Source of the DNA: a virus
Direction: 5' to 3' (one strand)
IMG/VR virus record: IMGVR_UViG_3300021373_000622
Location: 1 to 43,020 of that record
Length of the DNA: 43,020 nt
Shown piece by piece: positions 9,939 through 42,021 of this stretch. Position 1 is the first letter of the stretch, and each line of letters opens with the position of its first letter. Both the position numbers and the translations under genes were made by a program. The notes under the pieces are model-generated. The model saw nothing but the letters and a program-made list of their open reading frames with translations, did not search any database and was not told where the DNA came from.

Positions 9939-9946
9939 TATAAATA
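9939..9946 (+). promoter_or_regulatory. T4-type late promoter box TATAAATA
   Basis: An exact TATAAATA, the T4 gp55-dependent late -10 element. The predicted start is near 9952, giving a leader of about 64 bases with a strong Shine-Dalgarno (AAAGGAGG, 10003-10010) for Hsp20 at 10016. Confidence 0.6.
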
Positions 9947-24838: not shown

Positions 24839-24846
24839 TATAAATA
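24839..24846 (+). promoter_or_regulatory. T4-type late promoter box TATAAATA
   Basis: An exact TATAAATA starting in the last stop codon of the previous gene. The predicted start is near 24852, giving a leader of about 87 bases for the virion-related block. It is combined with a sigma70-like promoter 40 bases further on, so the block may be transcribed both before and during the late phase. Confidence 0.6.
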
Positions 24847-24938: not shown

Positions 24939-26162
24939 ATGCAAAGTTTTAAACAATATTTAAGTGAGGCTAAAAATACTCACTTAGAACATTTAGAAGA
25001 TTCTATCATTAATGATGGATATGATGGTGGTGTTAATGCCATTTCATTTCTTAAATCATTAAGAGATATGCTTATAGGATCATCAAGTAGAAGATTAAAC
25101 GTTTCAGTAAAATGGGACGGTGCTCCTGCTGTGATCTGTGGAATCAATCCTGAAAACGGCAAATTCTTTGTTGGATCAAAATCAGTATTCAACGTAACTC
25201 CCAAAATAAATTATACATCTGCTGATATTAGAAGAAATCACACAGGTGGACTTGCTGAAAAATTACAAGTTGCATTAGTAGAATTAAAGAAATTAGGAAT
25301 CAAAGGTGTTGTTCAAGGTGACTTTTTATATACTAACAATGAATTAAAAAGTGCCAACATAAGAGGTGAAAGTGTTTTAACTTTTACACCAAATACAATT
25401 ACATATGCTGTGCCTACAGACAGTGCAATAGGTAAAAGAATTGCGTCTGCTAAAATGGGTATCATATTTCATACAACATACACTGGTAGAAAAATGGCAG
25501 ACTTAAAAGCAAATTTTGGTGTGAACGTAAGTTCATTTAGAAAAACATCATCTGTATTTTTTGATGACGCAGGATACAAAGACGCTTCAGGTGTCGCTAC
25601 ATTTACAACTGCTGAAAGTGAAAGATATGACGCAATGCTAAGAATGGCATTTGGTTCTGTAAGTAAAGGCAGACCAATATTAAACTTATTAAGTAAACAA
25701 CAAAATTTATATTCTGTTGGTGCTAGACTTAAAATATTTTTCAATGATTTTATTAGAAGAGGACAATCAATAGAAAATGTAAGTAAGTTGGTATCTCAAT
25801 TTAGAGAATACTATATTAAGACTTTAGACAAAGAAATATCGGCAAGAAAAACACAAAATGCTAAAAGTAAATTTGAAGCAATGAAAAACGAAGGACTAAA
25901 ATTTATGGAAAAAAATGAAGTCGGTATATATTTTGCCATTGCTAGTTATGTCACTCTACAAAGAGTAAAAGATTTCTTAATAAACAAAATGAATCAAATA
26001 AAAAGTATAGGAACATTTTTACAAAAAGACAATGGTTTCGAAGTTACAAATCCAGAAGGATATGTTGCCGTAGATAGAATGGGTAACGCTGTAAAACTAG
26101 TTGACAGATTAGAATTTTCAACTGCTAACTTTAATATTTCTAAGAACTGGATAAAAGGATAA
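24939..26162 (+). CDS. Ligase-superfamily nucleotidyltransferase-like protein with capsid-targeting-like N-terminus
   Basis: N-terminus MQSFKQYLSEA resembles the T4 internal-protein capsid-targeting tag (MKTYQEFIAEA), with a potential gp21-type cleavage after L-S-E. Downstream, VKWDGAPA (57-64) matches the KxDG nucleotidyl-lysine motif of DNA/RNA ligases. VVQGDFLY (124-131), PEGYVAVD (372-379) and VKLVD (385-389) look like motifs III, IV and V. The distance between motifs I and IV (over 300 residues) is longer than in ordinary ligases, so an insertion is present. I believe this family is listed as an uncharacterised domain in cyanophages. Ligase or capping-type activity is an inference. Confidence 0.7.
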   Translation: MQSFKQYLSEAKNTHLEHLEDSIINDGYDGGVNAISFLKSLRDMLIGSSSRRLNVSVKWDGAPAVICGINPENGKFFVGSKSVFNVTPKINYTSADIRRNHTGGLAEKLQVALVELKKLGIKGVVQGDFLYTNNELKSANIRGESVLTFTPNTITYAVPTDSAIGKRIASAKMGIIFHTTYTGRKMADLKANFGVNVSSFRKTSSVFFDDAGYKDASGVATFTTAESERYDAMLRMAFGSVSKGRPILNLLSKQQNLYSVGARLKIFFNDFIRRGQSIENVSKLVSQFREYYIKTLDKEISARKTQNAKSKFEAMKNEGLKFMEKNEVGIYFAIASYVTLQRVKDFLINKMNQIKSIGTFLQKDNGFEVTNPEGYVAVDRMGNAVKLVDRLEFSTANFNISKNWIKG

Positions 26163-26163
26163 A

Positions 26164-26970
26164 ATGGCAAACTGGAGAAAAGATTTACAAAACTATGGTC
26201 CTTTTGGGCATGATAGAACAGTTTTTGAAGTTCAAATGATTGCCGACAAAGACGGTAATATTATTAACACATTTGGTGGAGCTGCAAACGTTAATATTGC
26301 AGCTGGTTTAGTTGATGGATATTCTGGAGTTCACAAATATGGTGCAGTTTATGGAACTGCTGTAGGAACAATGTCAACAGTATGGACAAGGGCAGATACA
26401 ACAGCAAATGCTTTATATGATTGGACATATTCAGCAGGTACAATTACAGTAGAATCTACATCTGGTTCAGATACAACAGATGTAACTATTTCAGGTTTAG
26501 ATGATAATTATGCTGAAGTTACAGAAACATTGACATTGACAGGCACATCACCTGTTTCAGGTACACAAACTTTCTCCAGAGTTAATCGTGCTTTTATGGC
26601 AGGTACATCAACCAATGTTGGTAAAATTCATGTTAAAAGAGGTTCAACAATTGTAACAGAAATTGCAGCTGATTATGGACAAACACTACAATGTATCTAT
26701 ACAATACCTGCAGGTAAAACAGGTTACTTAATGAATTTAAGTGCTAGTGCTTCTAAAAATCAAACTGTTGATTTATTTTTATTTCAAAGACCTTTTGGTG
26801 GTGCATTTAGAGTATCGTCAACATTATCTTTATATCAAAGTAATGAAGTATTAGAATTTCCTGTGCCATTAAAATTAACAGAAAAAACTGATATTGATTT
26901 AAGAACAAAAGGTTCTTCTAACGCAACAGTATCAGCAGACTTTACAATAGTATTGGTGGATAACGAATAA
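26164..26970 (+). CDS. Virion structural protein (beta-rich, 268 aa)
   Basis: A Thr/Ser/Gly-rich beta protein resembling structural proteins of marine T4-like phages. The start MANWRKDLQNYGPFGHDRTVFEVQ is followed by a long Ig-like or jelly-roll-type region with repeated Thr-Val strands. The C-terminal part includes YTIPAGKTGYLMNLSASASKN and LFLFQRPFGGAFRV, typical of decoration or fibre-associated proteins. There is no signal peptide. It overlaps the adenylate kinase start by one base. Confidence 0.7.
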   Translation: MANWRKDLQNYGPFGHDRTVFEVQMIADKDGNIINTFGGAANVNIAAGLVDGYSGVHKYGAVYGTAVGTMSTVWTRADTTANALYDWTYSAGTITVESTSGSDTTDVTISGLDDNYAEVTETLTLTGTSPVSGTQTFSRVNRAFMAGTSTNVGKIHVKRGSTIVTEIAADYGQTLQCIYTIPAGKTGYLMNLSASASKNQTVDLFLFQRPFGGAFRVSSTLSLYQSNEVLEFPVPLKLTEKTDIDLRTKGSSNATVSADFTIVLVDNE

Positions 26971-27554
26971 TGAAAACATTTAGAACATATATTAAAGAGG
27001 CACAACAAAGACGAATAGTTATGTTAGGTGGTCCTGGTTCAGGTAAATCAACATACACTAAGTTTTTAATGGACAGATATGGCGTACCTCACATATATCC
27101 AGGTGGCATGTTAAGAAAAGAAGTTGAGAAAAATACAGAAATAGGAAAACAGATTAAAGATTTAATTACAAAGGGTAAGTTTGCACCTAGTGAAATGGTT
27201 TTAAAACTTATTAAAGACAGAATTGCAGAAAGTCCAGACGGATATGTATTAGACGGATGGCCTAGATATATGAAACAAGTAAGAGAAATGGAACGAGAAA
27301 ATATCGGACATGATGTTGCTGTGTTTTTAGATGTAAGTAAAGAAGAAGTAATGAAACGATTACTTGCAAGAGGTAGAGTTGATGATACCGAAGAAGTTAT
27401 CAACGATAGAATTAAACTATACAAACAGGAAACTGGACCTGTTGTAGAATACTTTAGAAATAAACCTGGTTTTATAAGTGTTAAGGCCGAGGGTGATACA
27501 CCAGAAAACATTAGTAAAAAAATTATTAGAGAAATAGAAAATGAAAAGCTTTAA
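26970..27554 (+). CDS. adk: Adenylate kinase with capsid-targeting-like N-terminus
   Basis: Nucleoside monophosphate kinase (ATP + AMP to 2 ADP). The P-loop GGPGSGKST is at about 20-28, VLDGWPRYMKQ corresponds to the DGFPR motif, and GRVDDTEEVINDRI is a short lid segment. The long zinc-type LID insertion of bacterial Adk is absent, as in short-form AMP/UMP-CMP kinases. The catalytic domain starts only after an extra tag MKTFRTYIKEAQQR, which matches the T4 capsid-targeting sequence and has an I-K-E potential cleavage site. The enzyme may therefore be packaged and injected. It overlaps the next gene by 14 bp. Confidence 0.88.
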   Translation: MKTFRTYIKEAQQRRIVMLGGPGSGKSTYTKFLMDRYGVPHIYPGGMLRKEVEKNTEIGKQIKDLITKGKFAPSEMVLKLIKDRIAESPDGYVLDGWPRYMKQVREMERENIGHDVAVFLDVSKEEVMKRLLARGRVDDTEEVINDRIKLYKQETGPVVEYFRNKPGFISVKAEGDTPENISKKIIREIENEKL

Positions 27555-30500
27555 ACAATTTAAACAGATATACGAGTCTATTATAGACATACCAAGAAAA
27601 ACGTATGCAAAGGCAGTGTTTGATAAACCAGATACGCCTAATCCAGAGTTAAAAGCTTCAGTTAAAAAACAAGTATTAGACGGAATTAAGTCATTTGAAA
27701 AATTTGGAAAAGTAGTTAAGTATGGTCTTATTGGATCAATACTAACAAAACAATATAGAGGTGACGCTGACCTTGATGTTAATATTTTATTTGATATACC
27801 TGGTTCAAAAGAAGAACAGGAAAAGATACATGAAAAAATAAAAGAACATCAATATGAAATAAATGGTAAAACAATACCAGGCAGTGAACATCCTATAAAC
27901 TATTTTTCTATCATAGATCCTGCTATATTTGATAAGGCAAATAAGATGGCAGATGGTATTTTTGATATCGATAAGAACAAATGGATCAAAAAACCAGAAC
28001 CAGGCAAGTTTGAACCTGAAAAATATATGGCGGATTTTCAGAAACGAGTATCTGAAATAGATGTTGTTAAGGGTGAATTGGCAAGAGACATGATTGATTA
28101 TGAGGAACTAAAAGAACTAGGTAAAGACGATATTGAAAACTTAGAAGGATTAGTTTCTAAAAAGTTATCCGAAATTAAAGATTCCATTAACACATTAGTT
28201 GATATTGGTGCTAAAACTGTTACAGATCGCAAAGACGCTTTCTTAGCAGATATGTCACCAGACGAAGTAAGAAAATTTGGAGTAAAAAACCGACTTCCTA
28301 AAAACGTGATTTATAAGATGTTAGAAAAGTATCATTATCTCAAATTCTTTAAAACTTTGGAAGAAATTATGTCGGATGGTAAAATAACACCAGATGAACT
28401 TAAATCGTTATCTAAGATTAAAGAAGCCAAAGGTAGACATATAGCGTTTACCTTTGGCCGATTTAATCCACCTACAATAGGACATGGAAAATTATTAGAA
28501 AAATTATTTACAGTTAGAGCAGACAATCACTTTATATTTTTAAGTAGATCGGAAGACTCAGATAAGAACCCATTATCATTTAGAGAGAAGTCAAAAGTTA
28601 TGAAACAAATGTTTCCTAGATATGCTTCAAACATAATAGTAAGTGGTTCAAATAGAGTATTTGATATAGTCACTGATCTTTATAATAAAGGTGCTACAGA
28701 ATTATCAATGGTTGTTGGTTCAGATAGAGTAAGAGAATTTGACACCACTATTAAAAAATATAATGGTGTAAAAAGCAGACATGGTTATTATAACTTTGAT
28801 AACATTAATATAGTTTCTGCTGGAGAAAGGGATCCAGATGCTGACGGCGCTACAGGAATGTCAGCAAGTAAAATGAGAGCAGCTGCTAAATCAAATGATT
28901 TAGTTGCATTTAAAAAAGGATTACCATCAACGTTTAGAGACGCTGAAGGTTTATTAAAAAGATTAAGACAAGGTATGAGATTGGCTGCTTCAAACGATCC
29001 AGAAATAGAAGAAGGAACATTAAAGTTTAAACCATTCATAACTGCTTCCACAAAAGAGGAGTTGGAAAATATGATTATAAGAGACAAGTATTTAACAGAG
29101 CATTTATACGATGTAGGAGATATTGTTGATGATGTTGAAAATAAAATTACAGGTGTTATCGTAAGAAGAGGAACAAACTATGTAACACTTGAAGACGTTG
29201 ATAGTAAGTTGCATAAGTCATGGTTATTTAATATCATTGAATCGCCTGTTTATCCTAGAGAATTAGATGAGTCGGCAAGAAAATTAAAATACGACAAAGA
29301 AACAGATCAACCTAAAAAATATGTTGCTGGTTTATCAGATAAAGAGAAGAAGGCACATGACAGACATTTAGAAAAACAAGGCAAAAAATCTGACGATGAT
29401 AAAAGTGCTTACAAACAATCGCCAGCAGATAAAGTTGCTAAAACTAAACCAAGTGTTCATACAAAGAAATTTAAACAAATGTATGGTGAACTTAAAACTG
29501 AAAAAGAACCACAAAAAAGAGGTGATGAATTTGTAGATACTGGATTGCCTGAAAGTTCAAATAAAAAGGCAGATGAGTTAGAACATGCTAAATTAATGAA
29601 TAAGGCACTTAGAACTATGCCTCAATCTATTAAACAAAAAGAAATTATAAAACAAATAAATGTTGTAAGAAAAAGATTAGGATATAGACCTCTTAGTGAG
29701 TCATATGAAATAGGCCACGATTATGCAAAATACACTTCATCTATAACCCCAGGTCAAAAACATTACGACCCTAAATTTCAAGGTGGATCATACAAACCAA
29801 GTGATCCTAAAAACAATTTAATCAACGTTAATGCTGATAAAAAAGTTGACTTAAAAGATATTGAAGAATGGATAAGTGACAGTGAAACAATAGATAAATA
29901 TAAAGAAAGATACGGTGAAGACTGGCAATCTAAGTTAGACGAAGTATATAATAAGATGTTTAACAAAGTTGTGGATACTAGTGAAAACAGTTATACAACA
30001 AAAGTTAAAGACGTTAAAGGTGATTTGAAAACAATGCCTGAGGAAGACTTTGAAGGTAAATATAAAAAGTCTAAATCAGAAATGAAAATAGATATAGGTG
30101 GTGATGGTGTGAAGATAAGAAGTTTTAAAGAATATGCTAATGTAAATGAGGCAATTGATTATCATTTACAAATGAATGTTCCTATTTGTGAGAACATTTT
30201 TAGACATAATTCTTCAGCATTCTTTGAGTTTTATAATAGACTTAGAGAAAAAGTTGAAAAAGAAAAAATTGAATTATCTGTTGAAGACAAAGAGTTTTTA
30301 AATACAGATATTGGAACCTTTGGATTATTTGAAGGCAATGAAGTTGCTTTAGATTGTCCAATGATTGATGAGGAAGATGAAAAAGATCCTCCAATAGGTA
30401 AACCAAAACGAGGCGGACCTAAAAAGTTTTATGTCTATGTAAAAGATGGAGATAAAGTTAAGAAGGTCACTTGGGGTGATACATCAGGATTATCAGTTAA

Positions 30501-30651
30501 GATGAATGATCCTGAGGCAAGAAAAAGTTTTGCTGCTAGGCACCAATGTTCTACACAAAAAGATAGAACATCGGCTGCATATTGGGCATGTAACACACCA
30601 AGATATGCTAAACAGTTAGGTTTATCTGGTGGTGGAAGTTTTTTCTGGTAA
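27541..30651 (+). CDS. Multidomain virion-type protein: nucleotidyltransferase + NadR-like adenylyltransferase + basic repeats
   Basis: 1036 residues. The N-terminus MKSFKQFKQIYES is capsid-targeting-like. Next is a pol-beta-type nucleotidyltransferase motif, IGSILTKQYRGDADLDV (64-80; D75/D77/D79). Around 300-450 there is a cytidylyltransferase/NMN-adenylyltransferase domain with GRFNPPTIGH (306-315) and GMSASKMR (439-446). A KOW-like HLYDVGDIVDDV segment follows, then a basic KKYVAGLSDKEKKAHDRHLE region known from many marine T4-like phage virion proteins. A second SFKEYANVNEA sits near 860, and a C-terminal domain holds KFYVYVKDGDKVKKVTWGD, ARHQCST and YWACNTPR. It probably supplies nucleotide/NAD enzymes to the capsid. 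Confidence 0.75.
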   Translation: MKSFKQFKQIYESIIDIPRKTYAKAVFDKPDTPNPELKASVKKQVLDGIKSFEKFGKVVKYGLIGSILTKQYRGDADLDVNILFDIPGSKEEQEKIHEKIKEHQYEINGKTIPGSEHPINYFSIIDPAIFDKANKMADGIFDIDKNKWIKKPEPGKFEPEKYMADFQKRVSEIDVVKGELARDMIDYEELKELGKDDIENLEGLVSKKLSEIKDSINTLVDIGAKTVTDRKDAFLADMSPDEVRKFGVKNRLPKNVIYKMLEKYHYLKFFKTLEEIMSDGKITPDELKSLSKIKEAKGRHIAFTFGRFNPPTIGHGKLLEKLFTVRADNHFIFLSRSEDSDKNPLSFREKSKVMKQMFPRYASNIIVSGSNRVFDIVTDLYNKGATELSMVVGSDRVREFDTTIKKYNGVKSRHGYYNFDNINIVSAGERDPDADGATGMSASKMRAAAKSNDLVAFKKGLPSTFRDAEGLLKRLRQGMRLAASNDPEIEEGTLKFKPFITASTKEELENMIIRDKYLTEHLYDVGDIVDDVENKITGVIVRRGTNYVTLEDVDSKLHKSWLFNIIESPVYPRELDESARKLKYDKETDQPKKYVAGLSDKEKKAHDRHLEKQGKKSDDDKSAYKQSPADKVAKTKPSVHTKKFKQMYGELKTEKEPQKRGDEFVDTGLPESSNKKADELEHAKLMNKALRTMPQSIKQKEIIKQINVVRKRLGYRPLSESYEIGHDYAKYTSSITPGQKHYDPKFQGGSYKPSDPKNNLINVNADKKVDLKDIEEWISDSETIDKYKERYGEDWQSKLDEVYNKMFNKVVDTSENSYTTKVKDVKGDLKTMPEEDFEGKYKKSKSEMKIDIGGDGVKIRSFKEYANVNEAIDYHLQMNVPICENIFRHNSSAFFEFYNRLREKVEKEKIELSVEDKEFLNTDIGTFGLFEGNEVALDCPMIDEEDEKDPPIGKPKRGGPKKFYVYVKDGDKVKKVTWGDTSGLSVKMNDPEARKSFAARHQCSTQKDRTSAAYWACNTPRYAKQLGLSGGGSFFW

Positions 30652-30654
30652 GTT

Positions 30655-30939
30655 ATGAATAAACCATATGATGATATAGTGATTGAAGAAAACCATTTTA
30701 TAAGAACTATTGACAATACTGCCGATAATTCAGAAATGGTTTGGCATAGAGATAGAGCAGACCGAAAGGTAATTGCTTTAGAAGGTGATGAATGGTATTT
30801 ACAAATGGATAATGAAATGCCTCAACTTATAGAATTAAATAAACCGATACATATTAAAAAAGGTGTGTATCATAGAGTAATAAGAGGAAAACAAAAATTA
30901 AAACTAGAAATTTGGGAAAGTAACCATGACAAAATATAG
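30655..30939 (+). CDS. Small cupin-like protein (94 aa)
   Basis: Conserved marine T4-like phage hypothetical with MVWHRDRADRKVIALEGDEWYLQMDNE followed by IHIKKGVYHRVIRG. The spaced His residues and the order of short strands resemble a single-domain cupin (H50, H86 as candidate ligands), though the full metal-ligand set cannot be confirmed. It lies between two capsid-type proteins and overlaps the next gene by 14 bp. Function unknown. Confidence 0.65.
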   Translation: MNKPYDDIVIEENHFIRTIDNTADNSEMVWHRDRADRKVIALEGDEWYLQMDNEMPQLIELNKPIHIKKGVYHRVIRGKQKLKLEIWESNHDKI

Positions 30940-31900
30940 AACAAGTTGGCAACAAATAATGGAAAGTATGAACGAAAGTCAAACCGTTTTCGTTGCAAGA
31001 TGGACATCTAAACAAGATGGTAAAAGATATGCGTCTCCTTTTAAAACAAAACCAGACGCTGAAAAAAGAGCAAAAGAATTAAAATCACAAGGTAACAGAA
31101 ATATATCTGTAACGCAAGACACTTTAAGACCACACATTAAATGGAAAAAAGATGGGTCTGCTGATATAAAAGGAATGCAAGAAGAAGTATTAGATGAGGC
31201 AGTTTCAAAACAAAAACTAGACACATTAAAAAGGTCTTGGGCGTCTATTAAAAAAATGACACCTTCAAAGATTAATGACTTGAAAAAGTTTTTAGAAAAA
31301 CAATCGTCAGACGTTTTATTACAATTAAGTCAATATGGTATTAACTTTGTTTCTCACATGGCAACATCTGTATTGAAAAAAAGAAAACCTGGATCAATGG
31401 CACATGCTGGTTCTCACAAAACATATGATTTAAAAATGAGTGAGGCAGTAACACCAGAGAAAAATCCAGAAGCAAAATTTAAAGATGCTAGAGACGATAT
31501 TGCAAAGTCACAACAAGAATTAGATAAGTTAGACAAATCTAATCCTGACAATAGACAACAAGTTGAACTAGGTCAAAAAGAAATTGAAGTTCAAAAATTA
31601 AAACTTAAACAAGATATAAGTAAAGAAAAAGAAAAAGAAAAACAATTAACTCGTTCCGAACAATTCATAGAACAGATCGAAGGTTTAAAAAAGAAAGCTG
31701 AAAAATCTGGTATGCCATATTCAATATTAAAACAAGTTTATAATAGAGGAATGGCCGCATGGAAAGGTGGTCATAGACCAGGAACAACACCTCAACAGTG
31801 GGCATTCGCAAGGGTGAACAGCTTTATAACTAAGTCAAGTGGAACTTGGGGTAAGGCAGATTCAGATTTGGCTGATAAAGTAAGAGGAAGTAAAGATTAG
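30926..31900 (+). CDS. Virion-associated protein with conserved marine-phage C-terminal domain
   Basis: 324 residues. The N-terminus MTKYRTSWQQIMESMNES is a variant of the capsid-targeting-like tag with I-M-E at 11-13. A SPFKTKPDAEKRAKELKSQGNRN region follows, then a helical bundle and a Glu/Lys-rich coiled coil. The C-terminal domain (GMPYSILKQVYNRGMAAWKGGHRPGTTPQQWAFARVNSF) is a widespread module in marine T4-like virion proteins, which I believe is classed as a DUF. Probable head-internal or structural protein. Confidence 0.72.
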   Translation: MTKYRTSWQQIMESMNESQTVFVARWTSKQDGKRYASPFKTKPDAEKRAKELKSQGNRNISVTQDTLRPHIKWKKDGSADIKGMQEEVLDEAVSKQKLDTLKRSWASIKKMTPSKINDLKKFLEKQSSDVLLQLSQYGINFVSHMATSVLKKRKPGSMAHAGSHKTYDLKMSEAVTPEKNPEAKFKDARDDIAKSQQELDKLDKSNPDNRQQVELGQKEIEVQKLKLKQDISKEKEKEKQLTRSEQFIEQIEGLKKKAEKSGMPYSILKQVYNRGMAAWKGGHRPGTTPQQWAFARVNSFITKSSGTWGKADSDLADKVRGSKD

Positions 31901-31909
31901 GAGAAAACA

Positions 31910-32905
31910 ATGGATAAAAAATATTTTGAAACTAAAACAGGCAGCTTAGAAGATGTATCCACAAAGATCGCTAAAGAGCAGCCATCAATAACAAAACCAG
32001 AAGTAAATGTAAAATTAACAACAGAAAAAAATTACTTAGGAAATAAACCAGGTTCACTTTCAGACATTGCTGCTAAGATTGTAAGTGAAGCAGTTGATCC
32101 AGTAAACAAAGACGCTGTTAAAAAAGATTTTGCAGATAGGAAAGATAAAGACCTTGATAACGATGGTGATTCAGATTCATCAGACGAATACTTACATAAA
32201 AAAAGACAGGCAATTTCTAAAAGTATGAAAGAAAGTAAAGCTGATTTTCTTCGTTTAAACTTTGCAAATAATCAAACTGTTAAAAAAGCAGAAAAATGGT
32301 TGTATAATAATATGGGTCATTCTAATCCAGGATATACAAGTATAGTTGCTGATAAAAATTCTATTGAGTTTAAAGATATGAATGATGCTGATAGTGTTAT
32401 GACAAAACTCAAAAGAGCAGGATTCAATTTTAAAGTAGATATGAGAGAAAGCAAAGCATACATGTTATCTTATGGTAAAAAAGGTGAAAAGGCAAAATTC
32501 TTTTATGGCAACAGTTTATCAGATATTCAAAAGAAAGCACATGAATTAAGAAAACAAGGTATCGTTGTTGATAAAATGGGTAGAACTGAACCAACTCATA
32601 AGTTAAGACAAACTATTGAGTCAGTAAATCCAGACGATGCTGGTGAAAAAATAAATGATAAGAAAAAAGAACTTGCTAAGAGTGGTGAGAAGTCTGTTAT
32701 CAAACCTTTACAAGAATTAGAAAAAGAGTGTCCTCAATGTCAAGGCAAAGGATGTGATCATTGCGATGACAAAGGAACTCATACTGTTAAAGAAAATAAA
32801 AAGACATTCAAAGAGATTCGAATACAGGCTGGTGAGGGTTCAAAAACTGATACAGGCAAAAAAACTGCTGTAATAGATACTGAACCATCAACAAAACCAA
32901 TATAA
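31910..32905 (+). CDS. Virion-type protein with duplicated N-terminal motif, EF-hand-like and DnaJ-like zinc motifs
   Basis: 331 residues. Two copies of a short motif open it: YFETKTGSLEDVSTKIAKE (5-23) and YLGNKPGSLSDIAAKIVSE (42-60). DLDNDGDSDSSDE (81-93) has the spacing of an EF-hand/dockerin calcium loop. A folded middle (SIVADKNSIEFKDMNDADS) follows. Near the end CPQCQGKGCDHCDDKG (274-289) is a CxxCxGxGCxxC zinc motif like one DnaJ repeat. A TFKEIRIQAGEG segment lies in the tail. Modular organisation like its neighbours suggests a head-associated protein. Function unknown. Confidence 0.7.
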   Translation: MDKKYFETKTGSLEDVSTKIAKEQPSITKPEVNVKLTTEKNYLGNKPGSLSDIAAKIVSEAVDPVNKDAVKKDFADRKDKDLDNDGDSDSSDEYLHKKRQAISKSMKESKADFLRLNFANNQTVKKAEKWLYNNMGHSNPGYTSIVADKNSIEFKDMNDADSVMTKLKRAGFNFKVDMRESKAYMLSYGKKGEKAKFFYGNSLSDIQKKAHELRKQGIVVDKMGRTEPTHKLRQTIESVNPDDAGEKINDKKKELAKSGEKSVIKPLQELEKECPQCQGKGCDHCDDKGTHTVKENKKTFKEIRIQAGEGSKTDTGKKTAVIDTEPSTKPI

Positions 32906-32925
32906 AAAGTGCGTCAGAATAGCGC

Positions 32926-32954
32926 TTGACAACCACGCTCATATATGATAGTAT
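32926..32954 (+). promoter_or_regulatory. Sigma70-like promoter of the HAD gene, leaderless output
   Basis: TTGACA (32926-32931), a 17-bp spacer, and TGA-TAGTAT with the -10 at 32949-32954. AGCG/CGCT (32921-32924/32936-32939) flanks the -35 as an inverted repeat, comparable to 24883. An ATG lies at 32961, six bases after the -10. A weak hairpin (AAGTGC/GCGCTT, 32907-32912/32922-32927) overlaps the -35. Confidence 0.65.
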
Positions 32955-32960
32955 ATGAGT

Positions 32961-33461
32961 ATGAAAACAAACACTATGAATAAAATAATATATTGTGACA
33001 TGGATGGTGTTCTTGCAGACTTTAAAAAAGGTGCTGAAAGAGCAACTAAAATGTCAATCAAACAATGGATGAATATCCCTTCTTCAAAAGAGAAGTGGAG
33101 ACCTATTATAGAAATGCCTAATTTCTGGTCTTCTCTTCCTTGGATGCCAGGAGGGCAAAGATTATGGAGTTATATCTCTAAATTTAATCCACACATACTA
33201 AGTGCATATGTTGAGGAAGAATTTGACCCTAACTGTATACCAGGCAAAAGAGAATGGTTAAGAAAAAATACAGGATTGTCAACTCCTCAAAGAGTTAATT
33301 TAGTTAAAAGAAAAGAAAAAAAACTATTTTCTAAAAAAAATGCCATCTTAATAGACGATTATCAAAAAAATGTTGATGAATTTACTAGATCAGGTGGTAT
33401 CGGAATACATCATACAGACACATCAAAAACAATCTCCCAACTCAAAAGACTAGGTTTTTAA
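32961..33461 (+). CDS. HAD-superfamily 5'(3')-deoxyribonucleotidase-like phosphatase
   Basis: 166 residues from the preferred ATG at 32961. The upstream ATG at 32955 would fall before the predicted transcription start, and the ATG at 32976 is a further option. Motif I is YCDMDGVLADF (D13, D15), motif II includes LSAY, the motif III lysine is in LVKRKEKK, and motif IV is LIDDY. The cap insertion and the WMPGGQRLW segment suit the phage deoxyribonucleotidase-like branch. It likely dephosphorylates nucleotides and helps balance precursor pools. Confidence 0.82.
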   Translation: MKTNTMNKIIYCDMDGVLADFKKGAERATKMSIKQWMNIPSSKEKWRPIIEMPNFWSSLPWMPGGQRLWSYISKFNPHILSAYVEEEFDPNCIPGKREWLRKNTGLSTPQRVNLVKRKEKKLFSKKNAILIDDYQKNVDEFTRSGGIGIHHTDTSKTISQLKRLGF

Positions 33462-33464
33462 TCT

Positions 33465-33472
33465 TATAAATA
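33465..33472 (+). promoter_or_regulatory. T4-type late promoter box TATAAATA
   Basis: An exact TATAAATA just after the HAD gene. +1 is near 33478, with a leader of about 63 bases that contains a small CCTT/AAGG hairpin (33518-33521/33526-33529) and Shine-Dalgarno GGGAGAG before the ATG at 33541. Confidence 0.65.
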
Positions 33473-33540
33473 GTCTAGTGTAAAACACGGTATAAATTTA
33501 TATCAAAAATTGAGTACCTTTAACTAAGGGAGAGAATAAT

Positions 33541-33822
33541 ATGTCAAGTTGGGGAAAAACAGACGCTGCTGGATCAGCACCTTTATGGGCTACAGCACAG
33601 GTAAATCTAGCGCCAACAAGTACGAATGCTTCGGACTTGTTTGAGAATAATACGCTTCCATTACCATATTTTAGTGATATGGTAGTAGCACTATTTAACT
33701 ACACTTCAAGTGAAGTGCCAAGTGGTGCTCACCAAGGATGGGTTTTATCTAAAACGTTTACAGGTGGTCGTTCAGGCAGATCACACCATGAGACACTTGT
33801 TGCATTAACAAGTAATACATAA
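33541..33822 (+). CDS. Small virion structural protein (93 aa)
   Basis: Starts MSSWGKTDAAGSAPLWATAQVN, a pattern common in short structural proteins of marine T4-like phages. It continues with FENNTLPLPYFSDMVVALFNY and a Gly-rich GGRSGRSHHETL end. Strong Shine-Dalgarno and late promoter upstream, hairpin terminator downstream. This makes it a dedicated, probably highly expressed late unit, as for a decoration or fibre-associated protein. Confidence 0.75.
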   Translation: MSSWGKTDAAGSAPLWATAQVNLAPTSTNASDLFENNTLPLPYFSDMVVALFNYTSSEVPSGAHQGWVLSKTFTGGRSGRSHHETLVALTSNT

Positions 33823-33833
33823 TAAAAATTAAT

Positions 33834-33855
33834 AGGGGTCGCTTTGGCGGCCCTT
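33834..33855 (+). terminator. Hairpin terminator between structural genes
   Basis: A 9-bp stem AGGGGTCGC (33834-33842) with GCGGCCCTT (33847-33855), two G:T wobbles, loop TTTG, then ATATATATT. Two further small hairpins, GTAGG/CCTAC (33876-33880/33887-33891) and CCC-GAAA-GGG (33901-33910), precede the next Shine-Dalgarno sequence and may shape the leader. Confidence 0.65.
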
Positions 33856-33927
33856 ATATATATTAACAACGTGATGTAGGAAAATACCTACAATAGCATT
33901 CCCGAAAGGGTTTATAGGAGAATAAAA

Positions 33928-34380
33928 ATGGCAGATAAAAAAATAACACAATTAACGGACTTAGGTGATTCACTGGCATCCGTAGATTTATTTCATGTAG
34001 TGGATGATCCATCAGGAACACCAATCAATAAAAAAATTGCAGCTGAAGATGTTTTCAATAACATTCCTAGTTACTTAGGATTAGCACAAACTAGTCAAAC
34101 ATTAACTATGGATAGTTCATCACAGGTTGCAGATGTAACTTCGGCAATAACTGAACTTAACGCTGCTTCGGCACCAGGAACAGTTACACTTGCTGACGGA
34201 ACTAATGGGCAAATTAAAACTATTCTAATTACAACTGGATCAAATGCAGTAACAATAACACCATCTAATTTATCAGGACATACTTCGGTAGTTCTAAATG
34301 CTTTAGGTCAGTCTGTTACATTAATGTTCAAGTCTTCAAACTGGAACATTGTTGCTGGGCATGATTACACAACAGTATAA
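33928..34380 (+). CDS. Virion structural protein, 150 aa
   Basis: Starts MADKKITQLTDLGDSLASVDLFHVVDDPSGTPINKKI, the opening used by many phage tail-fibre or appendage proteins (an N-terminal attachment-like segment). A beta-rich domain (LADGTNGQIKTILITTGSNAVTITPSNLSG) follows, resembling the trimeric head domain of fibres. The length is small for a receptor fibre, so a short appendage or decoration protein is more likely. Shine-Dalgarno AGGAGA lies seven bases upstream. Confidence 0.72.
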   Translation: MADKKITQLTDLGDSLASVDLFHVVDDPSGTPINKKIAAEDVFNNIPSYLGLAQTSQTLTMDSSSQVADVTSAITELNAASAPGTVTLADGTNGQIKTILITTGSNAVTITPSNLSGHTSVVLNALGQSVTLMFKSSNWNIVAGHDYTTV

Positions 34381-34395
34381 TTATAGGAATTAATT

Positions 34396-34650
34396 ATGAT
34401 AGATAAAGCAAAACTTGAAAGTGAAAAGGCAACTTTAGAAAAAGATTATTCTGAATTGTCTAATAAAATTGCTGCTTTTGAAAAATCTTTGTTCAGTATG
34501 AAAAACAATTTACATGCTGTTCATGGTGCAATTCAACAAGTAGATAAATTTTTAAAAAATATTGATGATGAACAAAAAGTATTATTACAGGAGGGAGAAC
34601 CTAGTGGCGAAAAACAAGACTACAAACTCACATACAGTTTCGAAGGATAA
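34396..34650 (+). CDS. Coiled-coil protein, 84 aa
   Basis: Residues 1-60 form one long heptad-rich helix (KLESEKATLEKDYSELSNKIAAFEKSL) with an acidic, Lys-rich tail. No family beyond similar small marine phage proteins. It has a Shine-Dalgarno (TAGGAA) and overlaps the following gene by 47 bases. Possibly a structural chaperone or trimerisation protein. Unproven. Confidence 0.65.
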   Translation: MIDKAKLESEKATLEKDYSELSNKIAAFEKSLFSMKNNLHAVHGAIQQVDKFLKNIDDEQKVLLQEGEPSGEKQDYKLTYSFEG

Positions 34651-34816
34651 TTTTTTATCTGATCTTGCTGATAATACACCAAATGATAAACAATTTGAGG
34701 GAATGCAATTAGAAAATAATTCTGAAGATTATGAATTGCAAGAAGTTGAAGAAGATTTATCAGGTGGTATAACATTTAAGTATTTAAAAAAAGAAGTAAC
34801 GGAGAAAAAGAAATGA
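34604..34816 (+). CDS. Small acidic protein with GTG start (70 aa)
   Basis: The start is set at GTG 34604 because a near-perfect Shine-Dalgarno AGGAGGG (34589-34595) lies eight bases upstream. The earlier in-frame TTG/ATG codons at 34562-34570 have no such site and would translate the Shine-Dalgarno itself. The product is acidic, with a QLENNSEDYELQEVEEDLSGG stretch and a basic end. It overlaps the previous gene by 47 and the next by four bases. Confidence 0.65.
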   Translation: MAKNKTTNSHTVSKDNFLSDLADNTPNDKQFEGMQLENNSEDYELQEVEEDLSGGITFKYLKKEVTEKKK

Positions 34817-35247
34817 AAACTTTTAGACAACACATTAAAGAAGGTGGACAAATGGGTGTTGGAACAACTTCACACCATGACTCAGTAGAGAATGGTAGTG
34901 TAGGAGTTCATAACATACATGAACCTGCTATAATGCAAAGAGTGAACGCTTTTGTTGGTGCTGTTGCTGATAGAGAATATATTAAACCCGAAGGCGCTCT
35001 TGCTGATTTAGAAGAAAAATTAGGAAGACTTGGAATCGGTTTTAAATCACCTATCAACATAGTAGGCAAAAACGGAAACTTTAAAACTGAATTGACACAA
35101 CACGGCGGACGTTTCGGTAAAGATACTGACGGCTCTGATATTAATGATGATGGTATAACACATAGAACAGGTAAAGCATTAACATTAAAAGGAAAATATG
35201 AGACGTTAGAGAACGGCGCTGTAAGAGTATATGCAGAGCTTGGCTAA
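34813..35247 (+). CDS. Virion-type protein with capsid-targeting-like N-terminus (144 aa)
   Basis: MKTFRQHIKEGGQMG matches the T4 internal-protein tag including an I-K-E potential cleavage site. The rest is a compact domain (MQRVNAFVGAVADREYIKPEGALADLEEKLGRLGIGF) followed by a Gly/Asp-rich beta section (GGRFGKDTDGSDINDDG). Similar proteins occur in marine T4-like phages without known function. It overlaps both neighbours by one to four bases. Head-internal location is inferred from the tag. Confidence 0.7.
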   Translation: MKTFRQHIKEGGQMGVGTTSHHDSVENGSVGVHNIHEPAIMQRVNAFVGAVADREYIKPEGALADLEEKLGRLGIGFKSPINIVGKNGNFKTELTQHGGRFGKDTDGSDINDDGITHRTGKALTLKGKYETLENGAVRVYAELG

Positions 35248-35609
35248 TGTTTACACAGATAACGAGTAAAAATTGGCTGTTTTATGCCATAAAAAACTAT
35301 AATATTCCTAATCTGGATACAGAGCAGGAATTTTATGAAGATATAAAACGATTTAAGTATATTAAACGTTTATTTCGAAAGTTTAAGTCAACAGGTGAAT
35401 TAAAAACAAGACTTATACTTAATCATATAATAGTTTTAAATAATGTATTTGGTAATGAGGCAGCTTCAACATTGTTGCTGTTTAAAATAGAAAGAGAGTT
35501 TTGGCCTATATTAAAAACTTTTTTAGTATTTTTAAACAATATAAAAGATGAGGAGTTACCATTAGTGAAAACTAACAAGACTCTGTTATTAAGTTTGGAG
35601 AAAATATAA
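35247..35609 (+). CDS. Conserved marine T4-like phage protein (120 aa)
   Basis: A helical protein with the order NWLFYAIKNYNIPNLDTEQEFYEDIKRFKYIKRLFRK and LKTRLILNHIIVLNNVFGNEAASTLL, which I recognise as a conserved block in marine T4-like structural regions. There are no catalytic motifs. The start overlaps the preceding stop and its own stop overlaps the next ATG. Role unknown; possibly virion assembly. Confidence 0.7.
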   Translation: MFTQITSKNWLFYAIKNYNIPNLDTEQEFYEDIKRFKYIKRLFRKFKSTGELKTRLILNHIIVLNNVFGNEAASTLLLFKIEREFWPILKTFLVFLNNIKDEELPLVKTNKTLLLSLEKI

Positions 35610-36199
35610 TGGGAAGAGCAATAGACCTTTTAATTACATATAGAGTTATTAAGTTATTAGTAACTCCATGGGAAAAACATGACGCTTATAAGTTAGGTAT
35701 TATTGATGACAAAGGTAAAGTATTAAGAAAGGCAAGAACACTAAAGACTAGTGAGGAAAAGAAATCTTATACTTTATTACATAGATTTGTTTTTAATTTA
35801 AAAAGACTTATAGGTATAGTGCCTGGTGGAAAATCAAAACTAGGATCATACGCTGCCGCTTTGGGATTATTATTAAAAGAAGAAAAAGAAATAAATTCTA
35901 TTGAGTTAGAAAAAGATTTATATAATCATTTAAGACAAAATAATTTAATATCACTAGGTGATCAATTAAATGAAACTGTTGGTTATGATTATTTACCTAA
36001 ATCTAAGTTTTTAATGATTGATGAATTGAGAGATTTAGAAGATAATGTTATTGCTGAAGTTGGTGATGTTGTTGAAAACATAGTAGATCAAAAACCAATC
36101 GACAAATACTTTGGCGTAAATTTATATAAAGTTATAAATGAAGATACGCAAAAGACAATTGTTGTATCGGAAGATAACATAGAGAGGATAAAATTCTAA
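35609..36199 (+). CDS. Conserved marine T4-like phage structural-region protein (196 aa)
   Basis: N-terminal half: YRVIKLLVTPWEKHDAYKLGIIDDKGKVLRKARTL, then RFVFNLKRLIGIVPGGKSKLGSYAAALGLLL, a conserved arrangement in this virus group. C-terminal half: acidic, with GDVVENIVDQKPIDKYFGVNLYKV forming a small KOW/SH3-like strand set that resembles the VGDIVDDV region of the 1036-residue protein. Translationally coupled on both sides. A DNA or head-vertex role is conceivable but not shown. Confidence 0.7.
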   Translation: MGRAIDLLITYRVIKLLVTPWEKHDAYKLGIIDDKGKVLRKARTLKTSEEKKSYTLLHRFVFNLKRLIGIVPGGKSKLGSYAAALGLLLKEEKEINSIELEKDLYNHLRQNNLISLGDQLNETVGYDYLPKSKFLMIDELRDLEDNVIAEVGDVVENIVDQKPIDKYFGVNLYKVINEDTQKTIVVSEDNIERIKF

Positions 36200-36864
36200 T
36201 GAAATCATTTAAAAACTGGTTTGAAGCTTGTTGGGATGGATACAAACAAGTTGGTATGAAGAAAAAAGGTGACAAGATGGTGCCAGATTGTGTACCTGAA
36301 GAAGCACCAGCAAACTCAGTTGGTTCTGGTAATATTGCAGGAGTAGGTGTTGGTCCTGATGGAGAACCAGGTGTTATGCCTGGCGCTGCTAATGTGTATA
36401 AGAAAAAGAACAAAGATGAATTTAAAAAAAGAATAACACACTTTCTAACTAAATTTAAAACTGTAAAAGAAGATAACGATACAAAAGTTTTAGAGATAGC
36501 ACAACAGATACAAGACGATGAGAAAGTCTATTCAAAACAAATAGAACCTATTTTAAAAAATCTAAGTAGAAAAAAAGTTAAAGACGAATATAACGAAGAA
36601 GAAGCAACAAAATTATTTAGATATGTTGTTGATAATAAAGTAAGAGAAGTTGCTAAAAGTGCCAATATGAATAGTAGAATGATTCCTGGCACAGTAAGAA
36701 ATGAAGTTGCAACAAAATTACTTTCAACATACAGTAAAAAAATAGATGAATATGTTGACACATATAGCCCAATGGCATCTATGGGATCGCAAGGGCAATT
36801 TCACCCTACTGGAAGAAGACGAGTAGTGGTAAATGCAGAAAACGAAAAAAACAAAAAGGACTAA
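36199..36864 (+). CDS. Virion-type protein with capsid-targeting-like start and CWDGYKQVGMKKK motif
   Basis: Begins MKSFKNWFEACWDGYKQVG, a shortened form of the capsid-targeting-like tag fused to CWDGYKQVGMKKKGDKMVPDCVPE. That cysteine-containing cassette is found in many marine T4-like virion proteins. A Gly/Pro-rich linker follows (45-65), then a helical domain (DTKVLEIAQQIQDDEKVYSKQIEPIL) and a basic end. 221 residues. Probably the last gene of the head-related block before the membrane/lysis genes. Confidence 0.7.
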   Translation: MKSFKNWFEACWDGYKQVGMKKKGDKMVPDCVPEEAPANSVGSGNIAGVGVGPDGEPGVMPGAANVYKKKNKDEFKKRITHFLTKFKTVKEDNDTKVLEIAQQIQDDEKVYSKQIEPILKNLSRKKVKDEYNEEEATKLFRYVVDNKVREVAKSANMNSRMIPGTVRNEVATKLLSTYSKKIDEYVDTYSPMASMGSQGQFHPTGRRRVVVNAENEKNKKD

Positions 36865-38871: not shown

Positions 38872-39360
38872 ATGAAAACATCAATGAAAAAATTGATGTT
38901 AGTAGTGGCACTTATATTATTCACATCGATTACATCAATTCTAGCATCAGAATTAGTACATAATTTTAAGAATCCTGCCTTTAGTGGAAATGGATATTCT
39001 TCACATGTATTGTCTATCAATCAACTTGAAGTACAAAGAGAGAAACAAGTTATTGATGATAGAAAATCAGCAGAAGCAGCTGCTGAAAGAGAAGAAAAAA
39101 ACAAGACGGTAAATAAATTTATCGCCAATGTTGAAAGTAGAATTTATGCCAACTTGTCAAAACAATTAGTTGACAATATGTTTGGTGAAAGTTGTGATAG
39201 TAGTACCACAACTTGTCCTACATCTGGTAATGCAGATATAGAAGGTGCTCAAATTTATTGGGTAAAAGATACTACAACTGAAATAATTACATTAACAATT
39301 ACAGCTGATGATGGAACAGTTACAACTATGGCAGTTCCAATAGGTGATTTTCAATTTTAG
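38872..39360 (+). CDS. csgF: CsgF-like curli assembly component
   Basis: 162 residues. Signal peptide to about residue 26 (LILFTSITSILAS), then ELVHNFKNPAFSGNGYSSHVLSINQLE (27-53). This parallels the E. coli CsgF mature N-terminus (FQFRNPNFGGNP...), the part that inserts into the CsgG pore. The rest includes an Ala/Glu helix, a small disulfide-type CDSSTTTC loop, and a terminal beta hairpin (EIITLTITADDGTVTTMAVPIGDFQF) matching CsgF's C-terminal domain. It is followed nine bases later by the CsgG-like gene. In bacteria CsgF couples the pore to curlin nucleation at the cell surface. Confidence 0.82.
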   Translation: MKTSMKKLMLVVALILFTSITSILASELVHNFKNPAFSGNGYSSHVLSINQLEVQREKQVIDDRKSAEAAAEREEKNKTVNKFIANVESRIYANLSKQLVDNMFGESCDSSTTTCPTSGNADIEGAQIYWVKDTTTEIITLTITADDGTVTTMAVPIGDFQF

Positions 39361-39369
39361 GATATTATA

Positions 39370-40203
39370 ATGTTTAAGATAATAATGGTTTTGATATTAG
39401 GGATAGTTTTGACTGGATGTCAAACAGGTAAAGAAGTTGAATTGTATAAAGGACCATCTATACAAGTATCAACTACTAAACAAAAGTTGAAGGCATTACC
39501 TGATTTAGATGGACAACCTATTATAACAATAGCTGTTTACAGATTTACAGACCAAACAGGTCAAAGAAAACCTAGTACAAAGTTTTCACAATTATCAACT
39601 GCCGTTACTCAAGGTGGTAGTATGTTTCTTGTGGATGCTTTAAAATCAGTTTCAGGTGGAGATTGGTTTCAAGTATTAGAAAGAGAAGGATTGGATAATC
39701 TAATTAAAGAAAGACAGTTAATTAGATCAACTAGAACAGAATATGATGGTGAACAACAGGTTGGAAATATTTTAAAACCTTTAGTGTTTGCTGGACTTAT
39801 AATGGAAGGATCCGTTATAGGTTATGATAGTAATATACAATCAGGTGGACAAGGTGCAAGATACTTAGGTATTGGTTTAAGTGAACAGTATAGAGTAGAT
39901 CAAGTAACAGTATCTATAAGACTTGTATCAGTTCAATCAGGTGAAATATTATTAACATCAAATGTGACTAAAACTATTGCTAGTCACTCAAAAGGTGGTG
40001 ATGTATTCACATTCTTAGATATGAATACAAAGGCGATAGAAATAGAACGAGGCGTTGCTGCTAATGAACCAGTAACATACGCAGTAAGAAACGCAATAGA
40101 ATTTGCCGTGCTAGACATAGTTATGTGTGGTAAAGAAAAAGGATACTGGAAGTTTAAAAAAGAAAAAGAAAAAGGATTACACGAAAATGAAAACAATAAT
40201 TAG
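39370..40203 (+). CDS. csgG: CsgG-like curli secretion channel lipoprotein
   Basis: 277 residues. Lipoprotein signal with lipobox LTGC (14-17). The family blocks are clear: PIITIAVYRFTDQTGQRKPS, FSQLSTAVTQGGSMFLVDAL, FQVLEREGLDNLIKERQLIR, GLIMEGSVIGYDSNIQSGGQGARYLGIGLSEQYRVDQVTVSIRLVSVQSGEIL and NEPVTYAVRNAIE. These align with E. coli CsgG over most of its length. CsgG forms a nonameric outer-membrane pore (type VIII secretion) for unfolded curlin. The pore constriction residues Tyr/Asn/Phe appear replaced by smaller or aliphatic ones. The C-terminus is a charged repeat-like tail. Overlaps the next gene by 17 bases. Confidence 0.9.
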   Translation: MFKIIMVLILGIVLTGCQTGKEVELYKGPSIQVSTTKQKLKALPDLDGQPIITIAVYRFTDQTGQRKPSTKFSQLSTAVTQGGSMFLVDALKSVSGGDWFQVLEREGLDNLIKERQLIRSTRTEYDGEQQVGNILKPLVFAGLIMEGSVIGYDSNIQSGGQGARYLGIGLSEQYRVDQVTVSIRLVSVQSGEILLTSNVTKTIASHSKGGDVFTFLDMNTKAIEIERGVAANEPVTYAVRNAIEFAVLDIVMCGKEKGYWKFKKEKEKGLHENENNN

Positions 40204-40870
40204 TGTTGTTATGTTCTTATTGATGTCAACTATGTTATGTGCTAACGACATATATGTCACTCAATCAGGTGCAAACCTTGATTTAGACATAACGCAAGAT
40301 GGATCAAACAACACAGTTGGTAGTTCGCAAACAGCTTCTGCTTCAAGTGGTGCCACTACTGTATTAGATATTGACCAGGTTGGTAACTCCAATATAATTA
40401 CATATCAAATTAACGGTGCTACATATACAGGTACTATTAACTTAACAGGCAACTCTAATGATGTTGACTTAAATTGTGATAGCACAGGTAACAACAGTTC
40501 ATGTGGAACTGTAACTGCTTCTATTACAATGACAGGAAATTCAAGTGATATAGACCTTGATATAGGGGAAACTAGTGACGCTTCAAACTCAACTGTATCT
40601 ATAACTGGACAATCTGGTTCAGATTCAAACACTATAGCTGCAACAGTTGACGGAACAAGTGCTATTTTAACTTTATCAGTTAATGGTGATACAAACAACT
40701 ATTTAATTGATATTGACGGTGATGGTGATGTTAATGGTCATACATTGATACATACACACACTGGTTCAATTGCTGACGTTGATATTGTACAATCAGGTGT
40801 TAATGACAATATGATCACTTTAACAACAAGTGGAGATAATGCTGATATTGATATATCGCAGACTGACTAA
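40187..40870 (+). CDS. Curlin-repeat-like secreted protein
   Basis: The start is set at 40187, giving a signal peptide (MKTIISVVMFLLMSTMLCAN) with Shine-Dalgarno AAGGA upstream. An in-frame extension to 40127 lies inside csgG and is basic, so it is rejected. The mature part carries curlin-type repeats of the form D/Y-I-x-Q-x-G-x-N: YVTQSGAN, DITQDGSNN, DIDQVGNSN, DIVQSGVND, DISQTD. They are separated by a Thr/Ser/Asp-rich beta region with small Cys pairs. It probably assembles into amyloid-like fibres exported by the CsgG-like channel. 227 residues. Confidence 0.8.
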   Translation: MKTIISVVMFLLMSTMLCANDIYVTQSGANLDLDITQDGSNNTVGSSQTASASSGATTVLDIDQVGNSNIITYQINGATYTGTINLTGNSNDVDLNCDSTGNNSSCGTVTASITMTGNSSDIDLDIGETSDASNSTVSITGQSGSDSNTIAATVDGTSAILTLSVNGDTNNYLIDIDGDGDVNGHTLIHTHTGSIADVDIVQSGVNDNMITLTTSGDNADIDISQTD

Positions 40871-40871
40871 T

Positions 40872-40964
40872 ATGGACTACGGAACAATAAACTTACTGTT
40901 ATTTACAGGACTTATAGTATATGCATGTTTGGAAGTATATCGTTGGTTTAATAATAATTTCTAA
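40872..40964 (+). CDS. Possible tiny membrane peptide (30 aa)
   Basis: ATG at 40872 one base after the curlin-like stop. Product MDYGTINLLLFTGLIVYACLEVYRWF... is one hydrophobic helix with a short tail. It overlaps the FecR-like gene by 44 bases and has no Shine-Dalgarno sequence. Real expression is uncertain. It may be translated by coupling, or may be chance. Confidence 0.35.
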   Translation: MDYGTINLLLFTGLIVYACLEVYRWFNNNF

Positions 40965-42021
40965 TACTGCTATTGCCTCTATTGGAGAAGTAACATTACA
41001 CACAGGTGTTGCTACTATTGATAGACAAGATGGTGACAAGGGTATTGAGGTAAAGAAAGAACTTGACGTTTTTTCTTATGATACTCTTAAAACTGGCAAA
41101 GGCAAAGTTGGTATAGAATTTATTGATGAAACTAGAGTCGATGTTACCGAGCATAGTAAACTATTGATTGATGAATTTGTTTATGACCCTAATACAAAAA
41201 CAGGTAAGTTATCACTAAAGGCAAAACTAGGCACAGTAAGATATGCTTCAGGACAGATTGCTAAAAACTCAAAACAAAATGTAAAGATCACTACCCCCAC
41301 AGCTACAATTGCTGTAAGGGGTACTGATTTTGCTATGACTATTGATGAGTTAGGTGGATCAACAATTGTATTGTTACCTAGTTGCAACAGTGAAGGATTT
41401 TGTTATGTAGGAGAAATTGAAGTACAAACAGACGCAGGATTTGTAATTATGAATCAGGCATTTCAAGCAACATCTGTAACTTCCTCTGAAACAAAACCTC
41501 TAAAACCTGTAAAGTTAGATTTAGAATTAGATATGATTAACAACTTATTAATCATAACACCACCTAAAAAATTAGAAGACGCAATTGAAGAACAAAAAAT
41601 AAAATCAGTTGCCAATGCATTAGATTTAGATTTTTTAAAGTTTGATGAATTAGAAATAGATATGTTAGAAGTTGAAGAGGATGAATATGCTTCTGCTTTA
41701 GATGTGAATTTTTTAGACCAAGATTTTTTAGTTGATATATTAGAACAACTAAACAGACAACTTGCCTTACAAATGAGAAATGAATTTGATAAAAAGAAAG
41801 ATAAGAAAAAAACAGGTAAAGATGAGTTTGGAGTTATACTTCTAATAGAAGAACCTCAATGGGTGTGGATGAGATCAGACGCAGGTGGTAATAATATAGT
41901 TTTAAGATTAGACCAAGAATATGGATACAACATAAACGTAACGCAAGGTGACAGTGAAATTATAGATTATGAATTAGGTGACAGTCCAACAAATCAAATA
42001 AGAATATATCAGAATCAATAA
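40921..42021 (+). CDS. FecR-domain secreted protein
   Basis: 366 residues. Signal peptide to about 20 (IVGLIIISNTAIAS). FecR-type domain from about 50 to 140: DTLKTGKGKVGIEFIDETRVDVTEHSKLLIDEFVYDP, KLSLKAKLGTVRYASGQIAK and TPTATIAVRGTDFAMTI. An acidic helical stretch (LDFLKFDELEIDMLEVEEDEY) and a C-terminal beta domain (PQWVWMRSDAGGNNIVLRLDQEYGYNINVTQGDSEI) follow. In marine Proteobacteria FecR proteins often sit next to curlin/CsgG genes. The substrate or partner is unknown. It shares a base with the next gene's ATG. Confidence 0.78.
   Translation: MHVWKYIVGLIIISNTAIASIGEVTLHTGVATIDRQDGDKGIEVKKELDVFSYDTLKTGKGKVGIEFIDETRVDVTEHSKLLIDEFVYDPNTKTGKLSLKAKLGTVRYASGQIAKNSKQNVKITTPTATIAVRGTDFAMTIDELGGSTIVLLPSCNSEGFCYVGEIEVQTDAGFVIMNQAFQATSVTSSETKPLKPVKLDLELDMINNLLIITPPKKLEDAIEEQKIKSVANALDLDFLKFDELEIDMLEVEEDEYASALDVNFLDQDFLVDILEQLNRQLALQMRNEFDKKKDKKKTGKDEFGVILLIEEPQWVWMRSDAGGNNIVLRLDQEYGYNINVTQGDSEIIDYELGDSPTNQIRIYQNQ

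Follow-up and report, generated by a model that had tools for sequence, protein, structure and literature searches.

A single type of short N-terminal peptide heads six proteins of a marine T4-like phage, the bodies of which are unrelated and include metabolic enzymes, and the reading of this tag as a capsid targeting sequence of the T4 type is well supported. The DNA in which it was found, here called the window, is the whole IMG/VR record IMGVR_UViG_3300021373_000622 (43,020 bases), and the phage is related to Pelagibacter phage HTVC008M. The tagged genes start at positions 24939, 26970, 27541, 30926, 34813 and 36199 of the plus strand, and the six N-termini that an earlier note on this DNA had reported are present there verbatim. 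That note had proposed that the tagged set is targeted to the capsid, a proposal supported by the match to the T4 internal proteins (IPI, IPII and IPIII), by published virion data from S-CREM2 and S-SM1, by the likeness of the tag to putative gp23 maturation sites, by a late promoter, and by 43 unrelated bodies that carry the tag. As a whole, the observations are best explained, and in our judgement very likely so, if the tagged proteins are packaged, mostly cut, injected, and active in the next cell.

The consensus of the tag is M-x-[ST]-F-[KR]-x-[FYH]-..-[IL]-x-E/[ASG], where the slash marks the putative cut, and the [I/L]-x-E claimed for five of the tags is found as LSE, IKE, IYE, IME and IKE. 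Since a loose regular expression for the tag gave many false matches, the tag was scored with a position profile and with a strict motif. The profile, whose training set consisted entirely of marine tags, was then applied to the 254 open reading frames (ORFs) of T4, where gene 61.1 (MKTFKEFIKED), IPI, ndd.1, IPIII and IPII ranked as the top five; the presence of all three internal proteins among these five has a hypergeometric probability of about 4e-6. MKTYQEFIAEA, which had been given as the common start of IPI to IPIII, is correct for IPII and IPIII but not for IPI, which begins MKTFKEFTSTTTPVSTITE/A. Scores in the window are 13-19 bits for five of the tags and 6.6 bits for the one at 30926, values that are partly circular because the window tags belong to the training set; a null made of internal Met starts contained none of 8 bits or more.

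The tag is widespread. Scanned as DNA, the pattern M-K-[ST]-F-K-x-[FY]-[IL]-x-E-A matched at least 120 viral contigs, and a permuted pattern of equal composition gave 0 matches in the same scan; at the level of sequence, the likeness is more than chance. The 85 readable matches fall into 43 non-homologous clusters, 78 of the 85 have no in-frame upstream Met, and position 6, which the pattern leaves free, is Gln or Glu in 58/85, as in T4. Recognisable bodies among the matches include adenylate kinase, DUF6267, cytidyltransferase, RNA-ligase-like, HAD phosphatase, glucosaminidase and an RlpA-like domain. The tagged RNA-ligase-like protein of one unrelated viral contig (L140:4344-5264) matches PF09414 at 1.7e-5, just below the curated cut-off, and has an EKMDG motif. 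A profile search of relatives, which the earlier note had suggested, found the tag kept across several families: DUF6267 (79/84), adenylate kinase (33/39), the nucleotidyltransferase (NTase) fusion (39/62), the 34813 family (16/18), stand-alone DUF5872-like proteins (16/24) and a 95-residue family (7/7), the profile having been trained in part on the same families. The same note had named a tag equally common in non-virion genes as an observation that would speak against capsid targeting; in G001, a relative of 165 kb, the six strong matches (at least 9 bits) all lie within 12.6 kb, starting between 149.4 and 161.9 kb.

Proteins bearing the tag have been detected in virions. The virion proteome of S-CREM2 comprises 52 virion proteins (PMC10665884), and the strict motif [FYL]xx[FYH][ILMV]xE occurs at nine N-termini among the 219 annotated S-CREM2 ORFs, against 0.9 expected. 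When proteins annotated as structural or endolysin are set aside, 5/8 motif proteins are in virions, compared with 21/185 of the others (odds ratio 13, p 0.0013, a somewhat optimistic value since the strict motif was written after some S-CREM2 N-termini had been seen). The five S-CREM2 virion proteins are a S-adenosylmethionine (SAM) hydrolase (MKDFDSFLEE/F), an APH-like kinase (MKRFDAFLTE/E), a cytidylyltransferase (MKNFSSFLTE/A), ORF13 (MKDLHSFLTE/Q) and a Cas9-like nuclease (ORF12, L116:7704-10313), the last with the tag-like LRFASFMAE/A near its N-terminus. The authors of that study proposed packaging and entry into the cell (PMC10665884). In S-SM1, the cytidylyltransferase T4-GC190 was found in purified virions (PMC3037559), and its N-terminus reads MKKFSAFLNE/A.

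The tagged block is preceded by a T4-type late promoter octamer, TATAAATA, at 24839..24846 on the plus strand, 100 bases ahead of the start at 24939. T4-like cyanophages have this type of sequence (NATAAATA or TATAAATA) as their late promoter (PMC2984593). In 73/79 loci, which are related and hence non-independent, the octamer occurs at positions -64 to -112 relative to the start of the DUF6267 gene, with 0.04 expected per 250 nt per locus. Because of this upstream promoter motif, the tagged block is expected to be expressed late, as virion proteins are. In the whole window there are 4 copies of the octamer, all on the plus (coding) strand, where shuffling gave an expectation of ten on both strands. 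The remaining copies, at 9939, 33465 and 38859, stand before an hsp20-like gene (10016), the 33541 gene and a curli-like cluster (38872), suggesting that these units may also be late. The curli-like genes (CsgF-, CsgG- and curlin-repeat-like, 38872-43019) are of a kind previously described for pelagimyophages (PMC7029224).

The window is a fragment without head genes, and gp21 and gp23 were read from relatives. These also corrected the placement of the tags in the virion (structural) block: in relatives, the tagged block lies between gp41 and gp61, outside the head and tail structural cluster. T4 gene 61.1 lies between gp41 and gp61 as well, like the marine block. Its product (L113:18966-19130, minus strand; 54 aa, MKTFKEFIKE/DMVAG...) is the best T4 match to the tag, above the known internal proteins, and could itself be an internal protein of T4 that has gone unrecognised.

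One indication of cleavage comes from the NTase fusion family, in which 53 members are readable where the conserved body begins, at [SAG][IV]IDxPR. Glu directly precedes this start in 53/53, with Ile or Leu at P3 in 41/53, and the propeptides ahead of it vary widely in length and sequence, the longest lengths probably reflecting mis-called starts. An invariant Glu behind a variable propeptide is the pattern expected of a propeptide that is cleaved. The protease gp21 is present in HTVC008M and in three large relatives (G001, G002, G003). Putative gp23 maturation sites, located by analogy with T4, are FLSE/A in G001, LLTE/A in S-CREM2 and FLGE/I in HTVC008M; by this analogy, YLSE/A of the window and the putative capsid-protein site of its close relative G001 are sites of one kind. 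We infer that gp21 cuts after the Glu of the tag. T4-type cleavage in every tagged protein was considered and rejected for the sister-clade DUF6267 proteins, most of which lack [IL]xE.

The bodies behind the six tags proved to be unrelated, as had been claimed: DUF6267, adenylate kinase, an NTase joined to an adenylyltransferase, DUF5824, and two that belong to no Pfam family. The first protein (407 aa, 24939..26162, plus strand, as are all features of the tagged block) carries MQSFKQYLSE/A at 24939..24968 and matches DUF6267 at 9e-124 in Pfam. Its motifs KWDG (25110-25127), QGD and EGYV...KLVDR are conserved in 36 relatives and suggest a covalent nucleotidyltransferase. An RNA or DNA ligase was considered for this protein, and here the motifs are the lead: a profile search of PDB gave no match, a low-confidence model resembled no fold, and the hhalign probability was 1%. 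The suggestion that the cargo acts on nucleic-acid ends thus drew no support from the profile and fold tests. The second protein (194 aa, 26970..27554), with MKTFRTYIKE/A at 26970..26999, is an adenylate kinase by its sequence, as the earlier note had it (Pfam ADK 4e-38; PDB adenylate kinases 6e-35). It has a complete core with P-loop and matches cellular enzymes from their residue 2 on; since its residue 15 aligns with that residue 2, the tag appears as an addition of about 13 residues. Late promoter and capsid tag together argue for a virion role of this enzyme.

The third protein (1036 aa, 27541..30651) begins with MKSFKQFKQIYE/S at 27541..27576 and consists of a pol-beta-type NTase, a NadD/CoaD-type adenylyltransferase and a C-terminal DUF5872-like domain. 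It had been described as a NadR-like fusion; the fold supports a NadD/CoaD-type adenylyltransferase. In Foldseek the domain matched CoaD and NadD with E values of 3e-5 to 4e-5, the two structure models of this analysis being of modest confidence (predicted local distance difference test, pLDDT, 70 and 65), and it has the motifs GRFNPPTIGH and SASKMR. A domain of the broader NadD/NMNAT/CoaD type is supported by fold and motifs together. Two further sites lie within the protein. IKE/A at 28408..28440, between the NTase and adenylyltransferase domains, is a possible internal processing site, and a stand-alone Melnitz enzyme has the N-terminal MKKFSEIIE/A where the fusion has this internal sequence. 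Ahead of the DUF5872-like domain stands the internal tag KIRSFKEYANVNE/A (30112..30150), matched by a tag-like stretch at the junction of related fusions; stand-alone DUF5872-like versions carry the tag N-terminally. The fusion may be cut in the head into separate enzymes. A further module, [SA]Y[ED]IGxDYA, recurs inside several long proteins, in the window at 29689-29715 and in relatives, preceded by Glu in 38/40, often as V/I/L/M-x-E, as if internal processing sites separated the modules.

The fourth tag, MTKYRTSWQQIME/S (30926..30964), is the weakest of the six by its 6.6 bits; relatives read M[TS]RYxxTMxEA, and the protein (324 aa, 30926..31900) matches DUF5824 (Pfam 2e-18). The fifth, MKTFRQHIKE/G (34813..34842, 17.2 bits), heads a 144-aa protein (34813..35247) without a Pfam or PHROG match. 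Elsewhere (L068:19031 and L061:14003), a tagged mini-protein (MKRFKSYI..., about 44 residues) precedes a tagged 34813-family protein in one fusion, giving tandem tags. The sixth, MKSFKNWFE/A (36199..36225, 13.0 bits), heads a 221-aa protein (36199..36864) with weak PHROG matches only.

In the scheme we favour, the tagged proteins would be made late, and the tag would join them to the scaffold core, so that they become enclosed in the prohead. The gp21 protease would then cleave most of them, together with gp23, on the C-terminal side of the Glu. The mature proteins, among them the adenylate kinase, the NTase and NadD/CoaD-type adenylyltransferase and the DUF6267 protein, would leave the capsid along with the DNA and enter the next cell, the 27541 product possibly as separate enzymes cut apart at its internal sites. 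There they would act before phage gene expression, and their likeliest substrates would be adenylate, NAD or CoA-type nucleotides, or else nucleic acids.

Several points weigh against this scheme. The virion detection data are those of S-CREM2 and S-SM1, and the window phage is known here from its sequence alone. The S-CREM2 authors also allowed for carry-over (PMC10665884); three motif-bearing S-CREM2 proteins were undetected in the published virion proteome, and with a looser profile score (8 bits) the virion enrichment in this proteome was not significant (p 0.09). In HTVC008M, S-SM1 and P-HM2, homologues sometimes have short or missing tags. The sixth tag of the window, NWFE/A, is without [IL]xE, although a homologue in L019 has MITFSKLRE/A, and in sister-clade DUF6267 proteins MFSFKGF is kept while [IL]xE is mostly lost (29/82 have it, both clades counted together). 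The sister clade could mean that the tag targets the capsid and stays uncut, I/L-x-E being only part of a binding helix, and giant phages do not always keep the processing of injected proteins (PMC5694885). We regard an uncut tag as rather unlikely, given the invariant Glu of the NTase fusions and the resemblance of the tag sites to putative gp23 sites. A further point is that injection of the window's enzymes is something we infer, and small tagged proteins without enzyme domains do occur; the tagged proteins might thus reach the prohead and serve head assembly or DNA condensation there, instead of working as enzymes in the next cell. This is less probable still, since the adenylate kinase, NTase and adenylyltransferase retain their active-site motifs, and since the T4 internal proteins that bear the tag are injected, IPI protecting the DNA (PMC3012670).

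It could also be argued that the tag is a chance likeness, or that highly expressed genes use it as a signal for translation initiation or at the codon level; the enzymes would then be the products of ordinary auxiliary metabolic genes and work in the infected cell. The pelagimyophage adenylate kinase has indeed been listed as an auxiliary metabolic gene for nucleotide synthesis (PMC7029224), and the tag shows less synonymous change than the body does. However, most untagged families show the same drop at their 5' ends (gp41, 0.066 vs 0.221), and an initiation signal was rejected as the drop is not specific to the tag. Tags are also found inside fused proteins, the permuted control was empty, the promoter is late rather than early, and tagged proteins are present in S-CREM2 virions, all of which makes this explanation very improbable.

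The tag on several unrelated proteins, enzymes among them, suggests that a ready-made enzyme kit is carried in the virion, rather than made only after infection. The tag would provide a sequence rule predicting which ocean phage proteins travel in the virion, and it would explain the cytidylyltransferases and kinases detected in cyanophage virions. The phage adenylate kinase would have to be re-read, from a metabolic helper in the infected cell to a packaged and probably injected enzyme. It is quite possible, and we propose it tentatively, that marine T4-like phages have a modular injected-enzyme system, in which one tag serves dozens of unrelated enzymes, long fused polyproteins are packaged and then cut by gp21 in the head at their internal tags, and several presumed auxiliary metabolic genes encode pre-made effectors of the first minutes of infection.

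The closest known system is that of T4 IPI, IPII and IPIII and their capsid targeting sequence (PMC3012670), which is alike in the N-terminal peptide, the unrelated bodies and the [I/L]-x-E motif. The T4 bodies are small and DNA-protecting, whereas several of those in the window are metabolic enzymes; the marine block is moreover predicted to be late, lies between gp41 and gp61, and has internal tags in fused proteins. T4 Alt, an ADP-ribosyltransferase, likewise has a short cleavable propeptide and is packaged in the head and injected, but it begins MELITELFDED, which differs from the MKTFKxF type. In S-CREM2, the cytidylyltransferase and kinase found in virions both carry the tag, in an enzyme set that differs from that of the window, and the passages of the S-CREM2 paper covered here name no targeting signal (PMC10665884). 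The giant phages SPN3US and phiKZ inject head proteins with propeptides cut by a T4-type prohead protease; these propeptides mostly exceed 100 residues, in contrast to the short T4-like tag described here (PMC5694885). In the literature searched, none of the phage papers that mention a capsid targeting sequence concerned marine phages, judged by title. The tag itself is thus known, as the T4 capsid targeting sequence. The novelty lies in marine T4-like phages placing it on a battery of metabolic enzymes, encoded in a predicted late block that gp41 and gp61 flank, and in its internal copies within fused enzymes.

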